From assembly GCF_013373065.1 (NCBI RefSeq), contig NZ_JABXIN010000011.1, positions 62,001-126,000 on the forward strand: a stretch of DNA of 64,000 bases, in the 5' to 3' direction. Within the stretch, counting starts at the first letter, position 1. The number at the start of each line of letters is the position of its first letter. Both the position numbers and the translations under genes were made by a program. A model generated the notes under the pieces. The model did no database searches. It saw only the letters and a program-made list of their open reading frames with translations, and was not told where the DNA came from. This DNA is from Algoriphagus sp. Its GTDB lineage: Bacteria; Bacteroidota; Bacteroidia; Cytophagales; Cyclobacteriaceae. This document shows, piece by piece, positions 27,629-62,047 of the stretch.

Positions 27629-28288
27629 ATGAGCAGAAAGAAATTAGTTCGCTTCAAGGCGAATGAGGAAAACCCTAATGTAATTCAAGCAGGAAAACCA
27701 ATTTTTGAGGAAATAAAAGGAAATTGGAAGAATGGACAATTTTTGAATGAATACCCTTTGGTAGTTGAGTTGGCTTGTGGAAGGGGTGAATTTACGGTAG
27801 GGTTGGCTCGGGTATTTCCGGAACAAAATTTTATTGGAGTCGATATTAAAGGTAGTCGAATTTGGAAGGGAAGTTCAACAGCTACTGCTGAAGGCCTTCA
27901 AAATGTTGCTTTTCTCAGAACTCAAATTCAGCAACTTGATAAATTTTTTGCCCCGGGTGAAATAGATGAACTTTGGATTACCTTTCCAGACCCATTTCCA
28001 AGAGATGGTGATGAGAAACGACGCTTGACCTCTCCTCGGTTTTTGGATATGTACAAGCCATTATTAAAAGAGGGGGGTATAGTTCATTTCAAAACCGATA
28101 ATACGGGATTGTTTGATTATACTTTGGAACTCGTCAAGTCAAGAAATGATATCGAATTGATAGGGTTCACCCATGATTTTTACCAAAGCGAATGGAAGGA
28201 CGATCATTTTGGGATCAAAACCCGTTATGAGAAAATCTTTACCGAAAAGGGTGAAAAGATTAAATATCTAAAATTTCGATTTATTTGA
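27629..28288 (+). CDS. trmB: tRNA (guanine-N7-)-methyltransferase
   Basis: 219 residues. Methylates G46 of tRNA. SAM motif VELACGRGEFTVGLA near residue 47, NFIGVDIKGSRIWKG, the substrate/catalytic block WITFPDPFPRDGDEKRRL, and GGIVHFKTDNTGLFDY. It begins immediately at the folC stop (TAA ATG) and its end overlaps the convergent dehydrogenase by 8 bases. Confidence 0.95.
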   Translation: MSRKKLVRFKANEENPNVIQAGKPIFEEIKGNWKNGQFLNEYPLVVELACGRGEFTVGLARVFPEQNFIGVDIKGSRIWKGSSTATAEGLQNVAFLRTQIQQLDKFFAPGEIDELWITFPDPFPRDGDEKRRLTSPRFLDMYKPLLKEGGIVHFKTDNTGLFDYTLELVKSRNDIELIGFTHDFYQSEWKDDHFGIKTRYEKIFTEKGEKIKYLKFRFI

Positions 28289-29156
28289 TGAAATCAGCTG
28301 CTTTATAAGCAGGGTTAGGGTAGGTATAAAACCCTTCTCCTGATTTTTCACCTAATTTCCCTGCGTCTAGATACTCTTTCAATAAAGCTGCAAATGCTTG
28401 TGAAGCTGAGTCCTTTCGGGTTTTGGTGACGTGCCAGGCCGTATCCAGTCCGATGGAATCTAAGATCCCGAAGGGTCCCATCGGCATGTGAAAGTTGACC
28501 ATCCAAGAACGATCAATATCCTCGACGCTGCCTACTTCCCCGGTCAAAAGTTTTCCTGCTGCTCCAATCAATGCCAATAACATGGTATTGAAAATATATC
28601 CAGGATTCTCTTTTTTAACCAATACAGGTACTTGATTGAGTGATCTTCCTAATTGCTCTAAAATGGGAATTAAAGCGGGATCAGTTTCAGGATTGGGCAT
28701 GATATCTACTACCCTCGAATAAAAAACATCATGAAAATGAAAGGCGCAGAATTTTTTTGGTCTTCCGGACTCTTCTGCAAACATCGAGGGAAGTAAGTAG
28801 GAGGTATTGGTGGTGAAAATAGTTTTTTCAGGGGCTATTTCACTAATTTGCTTCCATACTTTCTTTTTTAATTCCACATCTTCGGTGACACTTTCATTGA
28901 CAAAATCCGCATCTTGGATAGCCTTTTTCGGATCTGTGGTAAAATAAATCCTTGCTAGAATTTTCTCCTGAGGTTCTTTCAGAAGTTGCCCTTTTTCGAG
29001 TTGATGAAGGATTTTCTTCATCGTTTTGAAACCGAAATCAAGCGCCTTTTCCTGAATATCATAAACGGAAACCTGGTAACCTGAAATAGCCGCTTGAAGT
29101 GCAACTCGGGAGCCGAGGGTTCCTGAACCCAAAATGCATATCTTGTGAATGTTCAT
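28281..29156 (-). CDS. 3-hydroxyacyl-CoA dehydrogenase (NAD)
   Basis: 291 residues. Oxidises (S)-3-hydroxyacyl-CoA to 3-oxoacyl-CoA in beta-oxidation. N-terminal NAD fold ICILGSGTLGSRVALQAAISGYQVSVYDI, the catalytic His/Glu region FCAFHFHDVFYSRVVDIMP, and the C-terminal helical substrate domain (MGPFGILDSIGLDTAWH, GEKSGEGFYTYP). Compared with HBD the motif is altered to GxGTLG. It is the last gene of the - strand module, 2 bases after the kinase-like gene, and thus likely co-transcribed with it. Confidence 0.9.
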   Translation of the reverse strand: MNIHKICILGSGTLGSRVALQAAISGYQVSVYDIQEKALDFGFKTMKKILHQLEKGQLLKEPQEKILARIYFTTDPKKAIQDADFVNESVTEDVELKKKVWKQISEIAPEKTIFTTNTSYLLPSMFAEESGRPKKFCAFHFHDVFYSRVVDIMPNPETDPALIPILEQLGRSLNQVPVLVKKENPGYIFNTMLLALIGAAGKLLTGEVGSVEDIDRSWMVNFHMPMGPFGILDSIGLDTAWHVTKTRKDSASQAFAALLKEYLDAGKLGEKSGEGFYTYPNPAYKAADFIK

Positions 29157-29158
29157 AC

Positions 29159-30187
29159 TTAAATTTTTTCAGATAGAATACTTTTTTCAGCTTTCATCGC
29201 TGCTGCTTTCACAACTTCAATCAAGGCCCCAAATTTGGGATCATTGGTCTGCCCCAATTTGAATCGTTTGTAAATCTGTTGCGCAATTACAGCTACCTTG
29301 AAAAGCCCAAAAACATAGTAAAACAAGATGTTTTGGAGATCAAGATTGGAATGTTTTGAATAATATTCAATCACCTCCTGCCTTGTAAAATTTCCTGGTA
29401 GGTGAGTCAGATTGAACATTTTCAGAATTTCGGGATCGTCTGCTTGTGCCCAGTAGGCTAAACTGGTGCCCAAGTCCATTAAGGGATCTCCAACTGTGGC
29501 CATTTCCCAATCCAATACTGCTTTGATTTCAGCTAAATCATCTGATTTCAAAACAAGGTTATCATACTTGAAATCATTGTGAATGAAGCCCTTGTTTTCT
29601 TTTGCCGGAATATTTTCCAATAGCCATTTCGCTGATTTTTCCATTGCTGGAATCTGATCCGTTTGAGCCCGTTGATACCGCTCTGTCCATCCGGAGACTT
29701 GCCGTTGAACATATCCCTCTGGTTTTCCCAAAAGTCCCAAGCCTGATTTTTCTAAATCCAACTGATGGAGCTCCAGTAAACAGTCAATTGATCTTTTGGA
29801 TAACAATTGAAAGGTTTCTCCTGTGGGAATGATGCCGGAAGAAGGGAGTCGGTTTCGAAGGATGGTTCCTTCTACAAATTCCATGATAAAAAAAGGCGCA
29901 CCTAGAATATCGTCTTCTTTATAAAAAAGTATTGGCTTAGGGGACTTTGTATAGGAGGCTCGTCGAAGTGCTTCCAATACTTTGCTTTCTCTCCCCATAT
30001 CGTGTGCAGTACTTATTTTATATCCGAAAGGAGGTCTTCGAAGAGCAAATTTCTCAGATGGCGTTTTAATGAGATAGGTAAGATTTGAAAAACCTCCTGA
30101 TAGAGGGCGGATTTCAATCTCCTGAGAATCTAGATCTAACTTATTTCCCAGAAAGGACTTTAATAGTTCAAAATCAATTTCCTTCAT
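29159..30187 (-). CDS. APH-fold phosphotransferase, ACAD10/11 N-domain/LvaA-like acyl kinase
   Basis: 342 residues. The aminoglycoside-phosphotransferase-like catalytic loop is intact: His203-Asn-Asp205-Phe-Lys-Tyr-Asp-Asn210 (HNDFKYDN), with Asp226-Trp-Glu (LDWEMATVGDPLMDLG) as the DFG-like metal site, and an N-lobe GGFSNLTYL with RRPPFG. In human ACAD10/11 and in Pseudomonas LvaA, kinases with this exact 'DWE.aT.GDPL.DL' block phosphorylate 4-hydroxyacyl-CoA. The ACAD gene upstream overlaps it by 4 bases. Antibiotic resistance is much less likely in this context. Confidence 0.85.
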   Translation of the reverse strand: MKEIDFELLKSFLGNKLDLDSQEIEIRPLSGGFSNLTYLIKTPSEKFALRRPPFGYKISTAHDMGRESKVLEALRRASYTKSPKPILFYKEDDILGAPFFIMEFVEGTILRNRLPSSGIIPTGETFQLLSKRSIDCLLELHQLDLEKSGLGLLGKPEGYVQRQVSGWTERYQRAQTDQIPAMEKSAKWLLENIPAKENKGFIHNDFKYDNLVLKSDDLAEIKAVLDWEMATVGDPLMDLGTSLAYWAQADDPEILKMFNLTHLPGNFTRQEVIEYYSKHSNLDLQNILFYYVFGLFKVAVIAQQIYKRFKLGQTNDPKFGALIEVVKAAAMKAEKSILSEKI

Positions 30188-31392
30188 GATCTTGAAAAGT
30201 TTTTCAGAATAGATTTGGCTAGGGAGGCTTTGTGAACCTCGTCCGGTCCATCATAGATTCGTGCTCCACGTTCGTGTCTATACCAAAAGGATAAGAGAGT
30301 ATCATCGGTTACCCCCAAAGCTCCATGTACTTGAATGGCTCGATCAATGACTTTCATCAAGACATCCGCAACAAAAAACTTGATTGTGGAAATTTCTTCT
30401 TTGACGGCTTTGGAACCATGAATTTGCATTCGTGAGGCGACATCCAAGACCATCAAACGACTAGCATTGATTTCTGCTCGGCTTTCTGCAATCCAATTTT
30501 GAACACTCTGCTTTTCTGCTAAAGGTTTTCCAGGGTAAAGTTCTCGACTAATGGCTCGTTTGCACATCAATTGGAAGACGCGTTCACAGATTCCAATCCA
30601 CCGCATACAATGATGAATACGTCCTGGACCTAAACGTTCCTGGGCTAGTGCAAACCCTTGTCCTTCTTCTCCAATCAAATGATCCCTGGGAACCCTGCAA
30701 TTAGTGAATCTAACTTCAGCATGCGATAGGTAATCTTCGCCTTCTTCTCCCATGATGGGGATATTTCGAATCAGTGAGAATCCGGGATTATCCAGTGGTA
30801 CCAATATCATACTAGCTCGCTTGTAAGGAGACTCAGCTTCTGGATTGGTAACCGCCATTACAATTGTGAAGGTAGCTCCATCTGCAGCAGTGGTAAACCA
30901 TTTATGGCCGTTAATGACGTATTCATCTCCCTCTAGTTTTGCAGTCGTACTTAGGATCACTGGATTGCTTCCTGCATTGTCGGGTTCTGTCATCGCAAAG
31001 CAACTTCGGATTTTACCTTCTTGGAGAGGTTTTAGAAATTTTTCCTTTTGCCATTCAGAACCGAATAGTTCAAGTAGTTCCATGTTCCCGATATCCGGAG
31101 CCTGACAGTTAAAAACGTAGTGGCCAATCGGACTTTGTCCAAGGATTTCAGACACTTTGGCAAAATCTTCCAAGCTAAGACCCAAACCTCCAGATTCCTT
31201 AGATAGGTGAGGTCCAAAAAGTCCAAGTTCTTTTGCTTTTATTCGTAATCCTTGGAGTGTAGGAAGGTGTTTTCGAAAAGGGCCTTGTACAACCTTAAGG
31301 TCTATTGGGAAAAGTTCTTGCTCAACGAATCCTCTGTATTTTTCAAGAAGATCCTCTAGATTTTGTTTTGGTAAATTTTGAGAATGACTCAT
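30184..31392 (-). CDS. Acyl-CoA dehydrogenase, ACAD10/11-type
   Basis: 402 residues. FAD acyl-CoA dehydrogenase fold with SCFAMTEPDNAGSNP and GHKWFTTAADGATF flavin/substrate segments and C-terminal RAIQVHGALGV. Instead of the usual catalytic YEGT it reads IYDGPDEVH with Asp381, the pattern I know from ACAD10/11 and LvaC, which act on 4-phosphohydroxyacyl-CoA. Together with the downstream kinase it mirrors the two halves of ACAD11 as separate genes. The overlap ATGA at 30184-30187 shows translational coupling; the SDR gene lies 5 bases upstream. Confidence 0.9.
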   Translation of the reverse strand: MSHSQNLPKQNLEDLLEKYRGFVEQELFPIDLKVVQGPFRKHLPTLQGLRIKAKELGLFGPHLSKESGGLGLSLEDFAKVSEILGQSPIGHYVFNCQAPDIGNMELLELFGSEWQKEKFLKPLQEGKIRSCFAMTEPDNAGSNPVILSTTAKLEGDEYVINGHKWFTTAADGATFTIVMAVTNPEAESPYKRASMILVPLDNPGFSLIRNIPIMGEEGEDYLSHAEVRFTNCRVPRDHLIGEEGQGFALAQERLGPGRIHHCMRWIGICERVFQLMCKRAISRELYPGKPLAEKQSVQNWIAESRAEINASRLMVLDVASRMQIHGSKAVKEEISTIKFFVADVLMKVIDRAIQVHGALGVTDDTLLSFWYRHERGARIYDGPDEVHKASLAKSILKNFSRS

Positions 31393-31397
31393 TGTTA

Positions 31398-32165
31398 TTA
31401 AATCGTAAATCCTCCATCAGCTGTAAATACTGCCCCTGTGGTATAGCTCGAAGCATTAGTTGCTAGAAAAAGGGCCATGGCCCCAATTTCTTCTGAAGTA
31501 CCCGCCCGTTTAATGGATAATTGCTGCAAAACCATGTTCATGATTTTATCATTACTCCAAAGCGCTTCGGAAAATTTGGTTTGGATTAAACCTGGGCAGA
31601 TGGCATTTACTCGAATTCCAGCACTTCCCCATTCTTTGGCGTAAACCTTGGTGAGGGAAATTAAGGCCGCTTTACTTACGGAATAAATTCCCAAACCGGC
31701 TTCCGGAGAAATCCCTCCTATAGAACTAATGTTGATAACGGATGCATTCGATGATTTTCGAAGATGAGGATAGCAAAGCCTGGATAATTCAAATGGGGCT
31801 TTGACATTTACATCCATTATTTTATCAAAAGCTTCCAAACTTGTTTCATGAACAGGTCCAAAAACCGGGTTGGAAGCTGCGTTATTCACAAGAATATCTA
31901 TTTGCCCATATTTCTCAATCGTTTGGTCAACCAGGTTAGGAAGTTCTTCCATATTTCCGACATTACATGCGATTCCTGTCGCTTCGTACCCCTTGGATTT
32001 GAGTTGATTGGCCATTTCATCCAAGGTATCTTGCTTCCTGCTACTGATGACAACTTTAGCTCCTGCGGCAGCAAATATTTCGGCAATGCTAAACCCGATT
32101 CCTTTGCTGGCTCCTGTGATGAGCGCTACCTTGCCATCAAGGGAAAAAATCCTATATAAATCCAT
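31398..32165 (-). CDS. Short-chain dehydrogenase/reductase (SDR)
   Basis: 255 residues. Classical SDR: cofactor loop TGASKGIG at residues 17-24, NNAAS at 94-98, catalytic Ser in INISSIGG, and Tyr161-x3-Lys165 (YSVSK). The C-terminus is SYTTGAVFTADGGF. It would oxidise or reduce a hydroxyacyl substrate with NAD(P); as the first gene of the four-gene unit it may supply or remove the 3-/4-hydroxy group. LvaD in the levulinate operon is also an SDR. The substrate remains open (3-oxoacyl reductase is possible). Confidence 0.9.
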   Translation of the reverse strand: MDLYRIFSLDGKVALITGASKGIGFSIAEIFAAAGAKVVISSRKQDTLDEMANQLKSKGYEATGIACNVGNMEELPNLVDQTIEKYGQIDILVNNAASNPVFGPVHETSLEAFDKIMDVNVKAPFELSRLCYPHLRKSSNASVINISSIGGISPEAGLGIYSVSKAALISLTKVYAKEWGSAGIRVNAICPGLIQTKFSEALWSNDKIMNMVLQQLSIKRAGTSEEIGAMALFLATNASSYTTGAVFTADGGFTI

Positions 32166-32274
32166 AAATCCTTCTTTGTTTTTCTTTTCAAGATATAAAA
32201 AAAATGACCTCTAGTAAGGCCAGTAGCCGAATATATCCCTAGTTTTATTGAAAATAAATCCTTACCTGAATTAT

Positions 32275-33243
32275 ATGAAAGAGATCATTTTTGAAAAAAC
32301 CGGAAAGCCATTGGAGGTTCTTGAATTACGTGAATCTGAAATCCCTACACCCAAAGAAAATGAAGTTTTGATTCGTGTAACTGCCCGAAATATCAATCCT
32401 TCAGATTTGATGTTTATTCAAGGGATGTACGGTATTACGCCCAAGCTTCCTAGTAGTGCAGGTTTTGAAGGATCTGGGATCATTGAAAAAGGGGACGTAT
32501 CGGGAAGATTTGCTAAGGGGATGCGTGTCATGTTTACAGCGATTGGCACTTGGAGGGAGTACGTTGCTGTTCCTGCAGGAGGGGTCATTCCTGTTCCCCA
32601 AAATATGCCTGATGAAATTGCATGTCAGGCCTTTGTAAATCCAATGACAGCCTATGGAATGTTAGAAAAATCCGGGCTTCAAGAAAATGATTGGCTTCTC
32701 ATTACAGCAGGAGCTTCTGCTTTTGGAAAGTTTGCCCTACAACTTGCAAAAGAAAAGGGAATAAAGGTCGCAGCTACTGTGCGTCATGATGACCAAAAAG
32801 CTCTTTTGGAAAGTCTTGGGGCAGATTTGGTGATTAATTCTGAAAAAGAAAAAATTCAAAAACTGATTCCCGAGCTGACAGGAGGAGGGGTTCATGTTGT
32901 TTTTGATGCAGTTTCAGGTCTGTTGGGAGCTAAGGCATTAAGTTGCCTTCGAACCAATGGGAAAATGATGGTTTTTGGTGCATTGAGTTTGGAAAATATG
33001 CCAGTTAATAGTGGTTTGCTGATTTTTAAAAACCTTACCCTAGAAGGATTTTGGCTTAGTACTTGGATTGATAGCTTGGATCATAAGGCCCGAATCGAAG
33101 CTTTTGGAAAGGTCTTTCATTTTCTAGTTAGTGAGAGTTCTCAAGTAGACATTGCGGGAAAGTATCCTCTAGAGGAATTTAAAAAAGCGATTGAAGCCTA
33201 TGAAACACCTGGGCGAAATGGCAAAATTTTATTGATGAGTTAA
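32275..33243 (+). CDS. Zinc-free MDR family NAD(P)H oxidoreductase (quinone or trans-2-enoyl reductase-like)
   Basis: 322 residues from the ATG at 32275; a TTG at 32248 precedes it but adds nothing. GroES-like N-terminus (EVLIRVTARNINPSDLMFIQG, PSSAGFEGSGIIEKG) and Rossmann part LLITAGASAFGKFALQLAKEKGIKVAATVR with the typical GA.aFG loop, then AVSGLLGAKALSCL. The structural-zinc cysteines are missing, as in quinone reductases and mitochondrial-type enoyl-CoA/ACP reductases. Divergent from the SDR module, so it may share its 109-base promoter region. Confidence 0.85.
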   Translation: MKEIIFEKTGKPLEVLELRESEIPTPKENEVLIRVTARNINPSDLMFIQGMYGITPKLPSSAGFEGSGIIEKGDVSGRFAKGMRVMFTAIGTWREYVAVPAGGVIPVPQNMPDEIACQAFVNPMTAYGMLEKSGLQENDWLLITAGASAFGKFALQLAKEKGIKVAATVRHDDQKALLESLGADLVINSEKEKIQKLIPELTGGGVHVVFDAVSGLLGAKALSCLRTNGKMMVFGALSLENMPVNSGLLIFKNLTLEGFWLSTWIDSLDHKARIEAFGKVFHFLVSESSQVDIAGKYPLEEFKKAIEAYETPGRNGKILLMS

Positions 33244-33327
33244 TTTCTGGGAATTTCCCATGCTTTGCCAGCCATATTAGCCATCTTTGTAGCCTGAAAT
33301 CAATTTTCGATATTAAAAGAAGTACGA

Positions 33328-33750
33328 ATGAATTGGGAAAAGCTGGACCAAGAATTAACTGAGATTGTAGAGAAACGGATCCAACTTGCGGAAATGGATT
33401 ATAGTCATGAAGATTATGACGATCTAGAAGAAGAACTTCATGATTTGGAGGATGATTTCAATGCTGATTATGAGGAGGTTTTGGAAAATGAATTGGAAAA
33501 AATCTATAGCTTCTTGAAATCGGATACGGACATCTTACTTCCTACCGCATATATCGCAAATAATTACAGGCCTCTTCAAGCAGATGCTAAAGGAATCGTG
33601 AGCTATGAAGTGGTGGGGCATGAAGGTGTACCCATTGAATCCGATCAGTTTGATAGGCAGGATGTGCGACTTGTTCTGATTCCTAATCCTGCTCGTTTTG
33701 TAATGTTAATCAATGGACGTCCTCTGAAAGACCTTTGGAGAAGTAGATAA
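33328..33750 (+). CDS. Small acidic protein, unknown function
   Basis: 140 residues with no signal peptide. The first half is a highly acidic helix-turn-helix-like coiled coil (DYSHEDYDDLEEELHDLEDDFNADYEEVLENELEKI), the second half is globular with YIANNYRP, GIVSYEVVGHEGVPIE and LVLIPNPARFVMLINGRPLKDLW. I do not recognise the family. Cytosolic; monocistronic between the MDR gene and a strong bidirectional terminator. Confidence 0.8.
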   Translation: MNWEKLDQELTEIVEKRIQLAEMDYSHEDYDDLEEELHDLEDDFNADYEEVLENELEKIYSFLKSDTDILLPTAYIANNYRPLQADAKGIVSYEVVGHEGVPIESDQFDRQDVRLVLIPNPARFVMLINGRPLKDLWRSR

Positions 33751-33752
33751 TC

Positions 33753-33790
33753 AAAACAGCCCGATTGAATTTTCAATCGGGCTGTTTTTT
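33753..33790. terminator. Bidirectional Rho-independent terminator
   Basis: 17-bp perfect stem AAAACAGCCCGATTGAA/TTCAATCGGGCTGTTTT with a 2-base loop, flanked by A and T runs. It sits between convergent genes (33750 and 33797), so it can terminate both. Confidence 0.92.
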
Positions 33791-61976: not shown

Positions 61977-62047
61977 GTTTTATTATGCCTTGAATTTGCG
62001 GTATAAGGGTGTTTTCATTGGTTAAAGCTTAAGAAAAAACTGTCAAA

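Follow-up and report, generated by a model that had tools for sequence, protein, structure and literature searches.

A four-gene operon in Algoriphagus

The stretch of DNA analyzed here, hereafter the window, comprises 64,000 nucleotides of an Algoriphagus sp. genome of 3.65 Mb in 38 contigs (positions 62,001 to 126,000 of contig NZ_JABXIN010000011.1, assembly GCF_013373065.1), and its reverse strand carries a compact module of four genes. These encode a short-chain dehydrogenase/reductase (SDR), an acyl-CoA dehydrogenase (ACAD), a kinase with the aminoglycoside phosphotransferase (APH) fold, and a 3-hydroxyacyl-CoA-dehydrogenase-like protein (HCD). An earlier note on this DNA had likened the module to the human enzymes ACAD10 and ACAD11 and to the levulinate (lva) operon of Pseudomonas. 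Its features, in window coordinates, are as follows.

31398..32165, minus strand: SDR, 255 amino acids, first gene of the module (open reading frame; Pfam adh_short_C2, E 2e-67)
30184..31392, minus strand: ACAD, 402 amino acids (open reading frame; Pfam Acyl-CoA_dh_1, E 5e-35)
29159..30187, minus strand: APH-fold kinase, 342 amino acids (open reading frame; Pfam APH, E 3e-42)
28281..29156, minus strand: HCD, 291 amino acids (open reading frame; Pfam 3HCDH_N, E 5e-42)
30601..30636, minus strand: ACAD residues 253-264, RLGPGRIHHCMR, with the equivalents of mouse ACAD11 R626, R631, H634, and R637 (alignment)
30232..30252, minus strand: ACAD residues 381-387, DGPDEVH, with the predicted catalytic Asp equivalent to mouse D753 (alignment)
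29558..29581, minus strand: kinase catalytic loop HNDFKYDN, residues 203-210 (motif and alignment)
28695..28739, minus strand: HCD residues 140-154, HFHDVFYSRVVDIMP, with Asp replacing the catalytic Glu and a one-residue deletion (alignment)
32166..32247, no strand assigned: divergent intergenic region of 82 bp, putative transcription start of the module (sequence reading)

All four Pfam domain matches lie far beyond their cut-offs. The SDR and ACAD genes are separated by 5 bp, the ACAD and kinase genes overlap by 4 bp, and 2 bp lie between the kinase gene and that of the HCD, the end of which overlaps the convergent trmB gene by 8 bp. The open reading frames, their spacing, and the motifs HNDFKYDN, DWE, and DGPDEVH had been described in the earlier note, and each was confirmed at its position.

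The four-gene operon is real and conserved. Because all four genes are carried by 25 of 26 further loci from the same genus, the set does not reflect chance, and the order SDR-ACAD-kinase-HCD is found in each of the 15 same-genus loci of 14 kb. The exception is a genome in 510 contigs (G001, locus L036), where the kinase is cut at a contig end, no SDR lies upstream of the ACAD, and no close HCD is present. The same four-gene order recurs in Aquiflexum, Lunatibacter, and one Cyclobacteriaceae metagenome-assembled genome (MAG). A MAG labelled Flavobacteriaceae (L112) presents an SDR-family gene followed by ACAD, kinase, and HCD, and a further genome (G201) has the ACAD, kinase, and HCD without the SDR. 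Transcription of the module likely starts within the 82-bp divergent region; in a promoter scan, consensus matches were about as frequent in shuffled sequence as in real sequence.

An acyl-CoA dehydrogenase and a kinase resembling ACAD11

Among proteins of solved structure, the best matches of the window ACAD are mouse ACAD11 (285 bits), human ACAD11 (280 bits), and entry 4hr3 (278 bits), whereas the best ordinary ACAD, a butyryl-CoA dehydrogenase, reaches 154 bits; the window protein is 38-40% identical to ACAD11. Five residues of mouse ACAD11 to which roles in catalysis or binding are assigned in the passages available from Rashan et al. (PMC12440821), namely R626, R631, H634, R637, and D753, correspond to R253, R258, H261, R264, and D381 of the window protein. 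All five are retained not only in the window but also in 15 of 15 proteins from the same genus, in 25 of 25 from the phylum, and in 80 of 80 from named genomes, the last set having been found partly with the pattern DG[PA]DEVH, so that its Asp is in part selected. In all 41 rows from window, genus, and phylum, an Asp (D381, within DGPDEVH) occupies the position of the catalytic Glu, and the same 41 rows contain the HCMR motif and upstream Arg (R253, H261, R264) predicted to hold the phosphate. The five other ACADs of this genome, 27-30% identical to the window protein, lack all four special residues and share only R631, which is general among ACADs and not special to the ACAD11 kind. The replacement of YEGT by DGPDEVH, which the earlier note had singled out, is thus present, as one among several diagnostic residues.

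The fold of the protein points in the same direction. With the predicted ACAD model (pLDDT 90.5) as query, 4hr3 and ACAD11 headed the structural matches at E values of 3e-33 to 3e-30, and the next match was an ordinary ACAD at 2e-24. A tree of 82 rows, built by a quick method with SH-aLRT support, included the window protein, 7 of the 15 genus proteins, the 25 from the phylum, 40 of the 80 from named genomes, the five other ACADs of the genome, and four Protein Data Bank (PDB) rows. The LvaC-ACAD10/11 kind is split from six ordinary ACADs (the five of this genome and butyryl-CoA dehydrogenase) with 100% support, three of these outgroup rows being long branches; the clustering with ordinary ACADs that the earlier note had taken as a ground for abandoning its view was therefore not seen. 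Within this kind, one clade (100%) unites ACAD11, 4hr3, Bacillaceae, Pseudomonadota, others, and 6 of the 25 phylum rows. In the second (98%), the window protein and its genus are joined by 19 of the 25 phylum rows and by representatives of Chloroflexota, Myxococcota, Planctomycetota, Thermodesulfobacteriota, and others. The two clades join at 93%, below the level starred in the tree, and seven rows, mainly from Actinomycetota, fall outside both. In this tree, therefore, the window ACAD was not placed within the ACAD11 clade: it resembles ACAD11 but sits outside that group. Its nearest named relatives come from a Cyclobacteriaceae MAG (71% identity), Lunatibacter (70%), and Aquiflexum (68%), in a list that may omit records closest to the window. 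By analogy with its characterized relatives, we propose that the window ACAD is a phosphate-eliminating enzyme.

The adjacent kinase scores 285 bits with entry 9o56, 153 with the ACAD11 kinase domain, and 136 with 3dxp; no mention of 9o56 was found in the open-access papers searched. Mouse ACAD11 residues R86, R176, D220, and N225 correspond to R66, R162, D205, and N210 of the window kinase, in which the APH catalytic loop, the DWE motif, and the CoA-contact arginines of the LvaA/ACAD10/11 kind are all present. Together with the DWE Asp, these residues form a complete set in 68 of 69 rows, the sole miss (L163) lying on a very long branch, and in none of the three other APH proteins of this genome. 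The rows comprise kinases from fetched loci scoring above 150 bits (relatives' genomes, minus eight genus loci) or above 80 bits (named genomes), four kinases whose ACAD lies elsewhere in the genome, and two PDB rows. The predicted kinase model (pLDDT 93.2) has 3dxp as its nearest structure, followed by 25-hydroxysteroid kinase entries and Rv3168. We propose that this protein acts as a 4-hydroxyacyl-CoA kinase in the role of LvaA. The earlier note's assignment of the ACAD and kinase to the LvaA/LvaC-ACAD10/11 kind is thus supported by scores, residues, tree, and fold.

The two genes also share their distribution. ACAD and kinase occur in an identical set of 27 among 395 genomes of the phylum (thresholds E 1e-60 and E 1e-40, respectively), with no exception, and in an identical set of 25 among 36 genomes of the genus, the present one included (kinase threshold E 1e-30). 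Chance alone, with kinship ignored, would produce an overlap of this extent with a probability of about 10^-41.7 in the phylum sample and 10^-8.8 in the genus. Among the 27 phylum genomes, 21 have the two genes within about 3 kb of each other, and at the level of the order, across 22 genomes, the ACAD was found in five and the kinase in six. Within the genus, ACAD and kinase have been gained or lost together; the tree of HCD proteins that bears on the direction of this change is rooted by very long branches.

Strict co-divergence of kinase and ACAD was considered and rejected, as kinases found beside ACADs of the ACAD11 clade (L084, L086-L088) group with the kinase of L120, which adjoins an ACAD of the window clade. 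The grouping points instead to one and the same kinase product serving both ACAD clades. In the same tree, the Bacillaceae kinases group with 9o56, and very long branches disrupt the outgroup.

Several related arrangements were encountered among the fetched loci. In three loci from one Bacteroidota family (L078, L081, L105), a second ACAD lies between the ACAD and the kinase, and its copy in L105 bears an AidB N-terminal domain; in L081 and L105, the SDR is preceded by genes for an enoyl-CoA hydratase and an amidase. On contig 27 of G000 (L267:4466-11059), genes for an ADP-ribosylglycohydrolase and a second APH-fold kinase are divergent from those of an ordinary ACAD without the special residues, an AMP-binding ligase, and an arginine deiminase.

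The reductase and the 3-hydroxyacyl-CoA-dehydrogenase-like protein

The nearest solved relative of the SDR is DHRS4, a mammalian peroxisomal carbonyl reductase. Three DHRS4 entries score 196, 190, and 181 bits, and the margin by bits is small, since gluconate 5-dehydrogenase reaches 180. A tree of 61 rows was also built, for which neighboring SDRs were taken if they lay no more than three genes from ACADs of this kind and scored above 100 bits with the window SDR, so that less similar neighbors are excluded; ten loci (eight from the genus, L078, and L081) were dropped. One clade (98%, 42 rows) holds the window SDR, both DHRS4 rows, and both SDRs from loci lacking the ACAD. It takes in all 22 SDRs that neighbor an ACAD of the window clade, 11 of the 21 that neighbor one of the ACAD11 clade, and 4 of the 5 whose neighboring ACAD is unassigned, and it excludes the seven other SDRs sampled from this genome as well as 1vl8, a small outgroup that makes the root unsure. 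Among the 11 neighboring SDRs outside the clade, nine are second SDRs of clusters that have one inside, and the remaining two are adjacent SDRs of Bacillaceae (L160, L161).

Plasmid-borne relatives of the SDR show the same linkage. In a sample of seven annotated records from seven genera (25 were listed and 57 matched), every one has an ACAD bearing the full set of five residues no more than three genes from the SDR, and in four a kinase also lies within the fetched stretch. The earlier note had regarded the SDR as an LvaD-like 4-oxo reductase, a view strengthened by this linkage and by the tree. We propose that the SDR is a DHRS4-type enzyme with the predicted activity of a 4-oxoacyl-CoA reductase, in the role of LvaD. 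It may also set the stereochemistry of the 4-hydroxy group, because the ACAD10 kinase prefers the R form (PMC11342911, in the parts available).

The fourth protein departs from expectation. Although the HCD passes the NF006143 model, named 3-hydroxyacyl-CoA dehydrogenase, with 328.8 bits against a cut-off of 312, its best solved relative is a diketoreductase, 4dyd (199 bits, 38% identity), which we take to derive from Acinetobacter; the 3-hydroxybutyryl-CoA dehydrogenases score 178 bits or less. Catalysis by L-3-hydroxyacyl-CoA dehydrogenases depends on a His-Glu pair. In the corresponding stretch of the HCD, the His and an Asn are retained, but Asp takes the place of the Glu, next to a one-residue deletion, and the classical pair was found in none of the 26 module-type proteins, all of which have the altered site, including the five from loci lacking the ACAD. 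The catalytic Glu is present in the HCD paralogue of this genome, in 4dyd, in 9fbd, and in all five fetched plasmid-encoded relatives (35-40% identity; five of 25 listed, 48 matched). The HCD is thus an atypical protein of the diketoreductase/NF006143 branch of the 3-hydroxyacyl-CoA-dehydrogenase superfamily.

The distribution of the HCD also differs from that of the ACAD and kinase. Both of these are missing from 11 genus genomes, five of which nevertheless have a close HCD at the same locus (L216-L220), with the SDR in G017 and G028 and without it in G009, G019, and G021. The earlier note had envisaged a module with its own 3-hydroxyacyl-CoA dehydrogenase; given the nearest relative, the altered site, and these five genomes, that description does not hold as worded. 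Nor is such a partner specific to Bacteroidota, as six fetched proteobacterial plasmid clusters also carry one.

These observations raise the alternative that the HCD, perhaps with the SDR, constitutes a separate unit for secondary alcohols or oxo acids that merely shares the operon, with the HCD acting on a hydroxy or oxo fatty acid and not on a 3-hydroxyacyl-CoA. The persistence of the HCD, alone or with the SDR, in genomes devoid of ACAD and kinase is consistent with this explanation, as are its kinship to diketoreductase and the altered site in all 26 proteins. In addition, on two of the five fetched plasmids (L227 from Leuconostoc and L229 from Agrobacterium), the diketoreductase-type dehydrogenase adjoins an oleate hydratase gene or is one gene away from it, and is a candidate hydroxy fatty acid dehydrogenase. 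The position of the HCD after the kinase in 15 of 15 genus loci argues for a shared function, however, as do its score above the NF006143 cut-off and the lack of a full-length oleate hydratase (PF06100) in this genome. We regard a separate unit as a serious possibility, though not the one that we favor.

Genes encoding a Dyp-type peroxidase and a catalase occur near the diketoreductase-type dehydrogenase in L226 and L229. In six genus loci (L095, L097, L104, L216, L217, L220), the HCD is followed by a gene of family c21, the L216 copy of which has 7TM sensor, histidine kinase, and receiver domains; this gene is possibly a regulator. On the other side of the module, and divergent from it, lie a gene for a PIG3-like NADPH:quinone oxidoreductase of the medium-chain dehydrogenase/reductase (MDR) type and a gene of 140 codons without a Pfam match (32248-33750, plus strand), which are retained in most genus loci. 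The second of these is followed by a strong terminator-like hairpin of 16 pairs (33753-33788, plus strand). MDR genes near ACADs of this kind are also found in L231, L271, and L275, genes assigned to the same cluster occur in L084, L086, and L087, and the MDR protein may reduce enals or enones in the same metabolism.

A predicted route for 4-oxygenated acyl-CoAs

We consider it probable that the module serves as an entry unit into catabolism for 4-oxygenated acyl-CoAs, converting them by way of 4-hydroxy and 4-phospho intermediates to 2-enoyl-CoA. Such acyl-CoAs stall ordinary beta-oxidation. In a first step, the SDR would use NAD(P)H to reduce a 4-oxoacyl-CoA to the 4-hydroxyacyl-CoA, the hydroxyl group of which the kinase would phosphorylate with ATP in a second. 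In a third, Asp381 and FAD of the ACAD would remove the alpha and beta hydrogens and the phosphate, held by Arg253, His261, and Arg264, would leave; return of the hydride would then yield a plain 2-enoyl-CoA with no net reduction of FAD. Finally, hydration by an enoyl-CoA hydratase encoded elsewhere, or by the ACAD itself, would be followed by oxidation by a dehydrogenase, perhaps the HCD, and by thiolysis.

This scheme maps the chemistry of characterized relatives, as given in the available parts of two studies (PMC12440821, PMC11342911), onto the observed gene anatomy, family membership, residue conservation, and co-occurrence. For the first step, LvaD is reported to reduce levulinyl-CoA with NADH or NADPH (PMC6692424, seen in part). 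The least secure elements are the assignment of the HCD to the final step and the chain length of the substrate, for which levulinate, gamma-lactones, and oxidized lipids are candidate sources. Elsewhere in the genome, downstream functions are represented by two strong thiolases and three crotonases, along with five AMP-binding matches that exceed the cut-off (acyl-CoA ligases) and a further crotonase match in an 812-residue frame that, by its size, appears FadB-like. This frame belongs to a group of genes within 8 kb on contig 18 that also includes an ACAD, a thiolase, and a ligase. Oleate hydratase was considered as a source of 4-hydroxy acids in this genome and set aside, with no full-length PF06100 match found: the genome's own match (24.0 bits, cut-off 23) covers model positions 2-73 of 495 in a 502-residue frame. 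Matches to PF06100 occur in 26 of 58 relatives, eight of them over the cut-off including this genome, and span the whole model in G043 alone, a member of another family.

A number of observations weigh against this reading. ACAD and kinase lie apart in 6 of the 27 phylum genomes, one order-level genome in 720 contigs (G052) has a kinase match without an ACAD match, and the kinase and ACAD trees are not congruent. The SDR passes the cut-off of the broad NCBIfam subfamily "glucose 1-dehydrogenase," is missing before the ACAD in the genus member G001, and, beyond the genus, directly precedes the ACAD as a DHRS4-type protein in 10 of 25 loci (one from a shorter locus only), with an eleventh four genes away. 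Because five genus genomes keep the HCD, two of them with the SDR, in the absence of ACAD and kinase, HCD and SDR do something beyond the proposed pathway. A tblastn search of the 64-kb window alone found no match to a DUF6285-annotated Thermus protein representing LvaB, which we take to belong to the DUF6285 family. The lvaB gene is needed for growth of P. putida on levulinate (PMC6692424, in part). Lastly, the proteins assayed in the accessible portions of the open-access literature are those of mouse and human (ACAD10/11), P. putida, and B. pseudomallei (PMC12440821, PMC11342911, PMC6692424), and none was found there that is known to belong to the clade of the window ACAD.

The same chemistry could also serve another alcohol, for instance a hydroxyl group, tertiary or on a side chain, of a CoA ester that resembles a steroid or terpenoid; the kinase would phosphorylate this group and the ACAD would eliminate the phosphate. 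After 3dxp, the neighbors of the kinase model are entries 9fsg and 9ft5, which are 25-hydroxysteroid kinases according to their titles, and in Sphingobium a plasmid-borne cluster with a related ACAD and kinase lies near a cytochrome P450. We think this explanation unlikely, as the 25-hydroxysteroid kinase scores 53 bits against 153 for the ACAD11 kinase and 285 for 9o56, and the CoA-contact arginines modelled for ACAD11 are retained. Such pairs bear the generic automatic names "acyl-CoA dehydrogenase family protein" and "phosphotransferase family protein," but an ordinary ACAD beside an unrelated small-molecule kinase is very improbable here, being contrary to residues, tree, fold ranking, and co-occurrence alike. 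The Sphingobium cluster itself (L231, conjugative plasmid NZ_CP020539.1) contains ACAD, kinase, 3-hydroxyacyl-CoA dehydrogenase, ferredoxin, and cytochrome P450, and P450 hydroxylation followed by phosphate elimination is a possible reading of it.

Viewed as an entry unit for 4-oxygenated acyl-CoAs, the module shares with ACAD10 and ACAD11 the pairing of kinase and ACAD, the five ACAD and four kinase residues discussed by Rashan et al., and the predicted ACAD fold. It differs in having two separate proteins in reversed order (ACAD, then kinase), in the clade of its ACAD, and in the DHRS4-type SDR and HCD added to the operon. With the lva operon of P. putida it has in common separate kinase, ACAD, and SDR genes, for which the same three roles are proposed, although the LvaA, LvaC, and LvaD sequences were not compared directly; it lacks LvaB-like and LvaE-like genes and includes the atypical HCD. 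Homologues of lvaABCD have been noted in Alpha-, Beta-, and Gammaproteobacteria (Rand et al., as quoted in a citing passage).

A further likeness, to Arabidopsis, is drawn without comparison of plant sequences. There, IBR3 is an ACAD-like protein, which we take to be an APH-ACAD fusion, and IBR1 (SDRa) groups, in the published account as far as it was accessible, with human DHRS4, the relative of the window SDR. The ibr1, ibr3, and ibr10 mutants are described in the portions consulted as resistant to indole-3-butyric acid and not as general beta-oxidation mutants; the difference is that IBR1, IBR3, and IBR10 act on indole-3-butyric acid, which has no 4-hydroxy group. In the available parts of the literature, DHRS4 is described as a peroxisomal reductase that depends on NADP(H), and ACAD11 is likewise peroxisomal. 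DHRS4 lies inside the clade of ACAD-adjacent SDRs, whereas its activities published there concern retinoids, steroids, bile acids, and aromatic carbonyls. In those same parts, no link between DHRS4 and ACAD11 was found beyond shared tables of peroxisomal proteins (PMC11673421), and among the matches listed, IBR3 and ACAD10/11 appeared together only in the gene list of a yeast genome paper. The word "phosphotransferase" was not found in any of 15 open-access papers on the IBR proteins, and the terms IBR3, Arabidopsis, DHRS4, and LvaD do not occur in PMC12440821 or PMC11342911, nor does SDR in the former.

We therefore put forward tentatively, as a proposal that may well prove wrong, that a trio of DHRS4-type reductase, 4-hydroxyacyl-CoA kinase, and phosphate-eliminating ACAD is conserved from bacteria to eukaryotic organelles, with DHRS4 (alongside ACAD11) and IBR1 (alongside IBR3) acting as 4-oxoacyl-CoA reductases that feed the kinase-ACAD enzymes. 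If so, two problems would merge into one question, approachable with four small bacterial genes: the orphan biochemistry of IBR1 and IBR3 in the metabolism of auxin precursors, and the identity of the substrate on which DHRS4 naturally acts. The frequent SDR partner would be a candidate for the reductase that feeds animal ACAD11, and it offers a chemical hypothesis for plant IBR1 and IBR3. The HCD subfamily with Asp in its catalytic site would represent a new enzyme. The automatic names "aminoglycoside phosphotransferase" and "acyl-CoA dehydrogenase" would conceal this pathway, and the spread of the window ACAD clade over Bacteroidota, Chloroflexota, Myxococcota, and others would widen 4-hydroxy acid catabolism beyond mammals and Pseudomonas.

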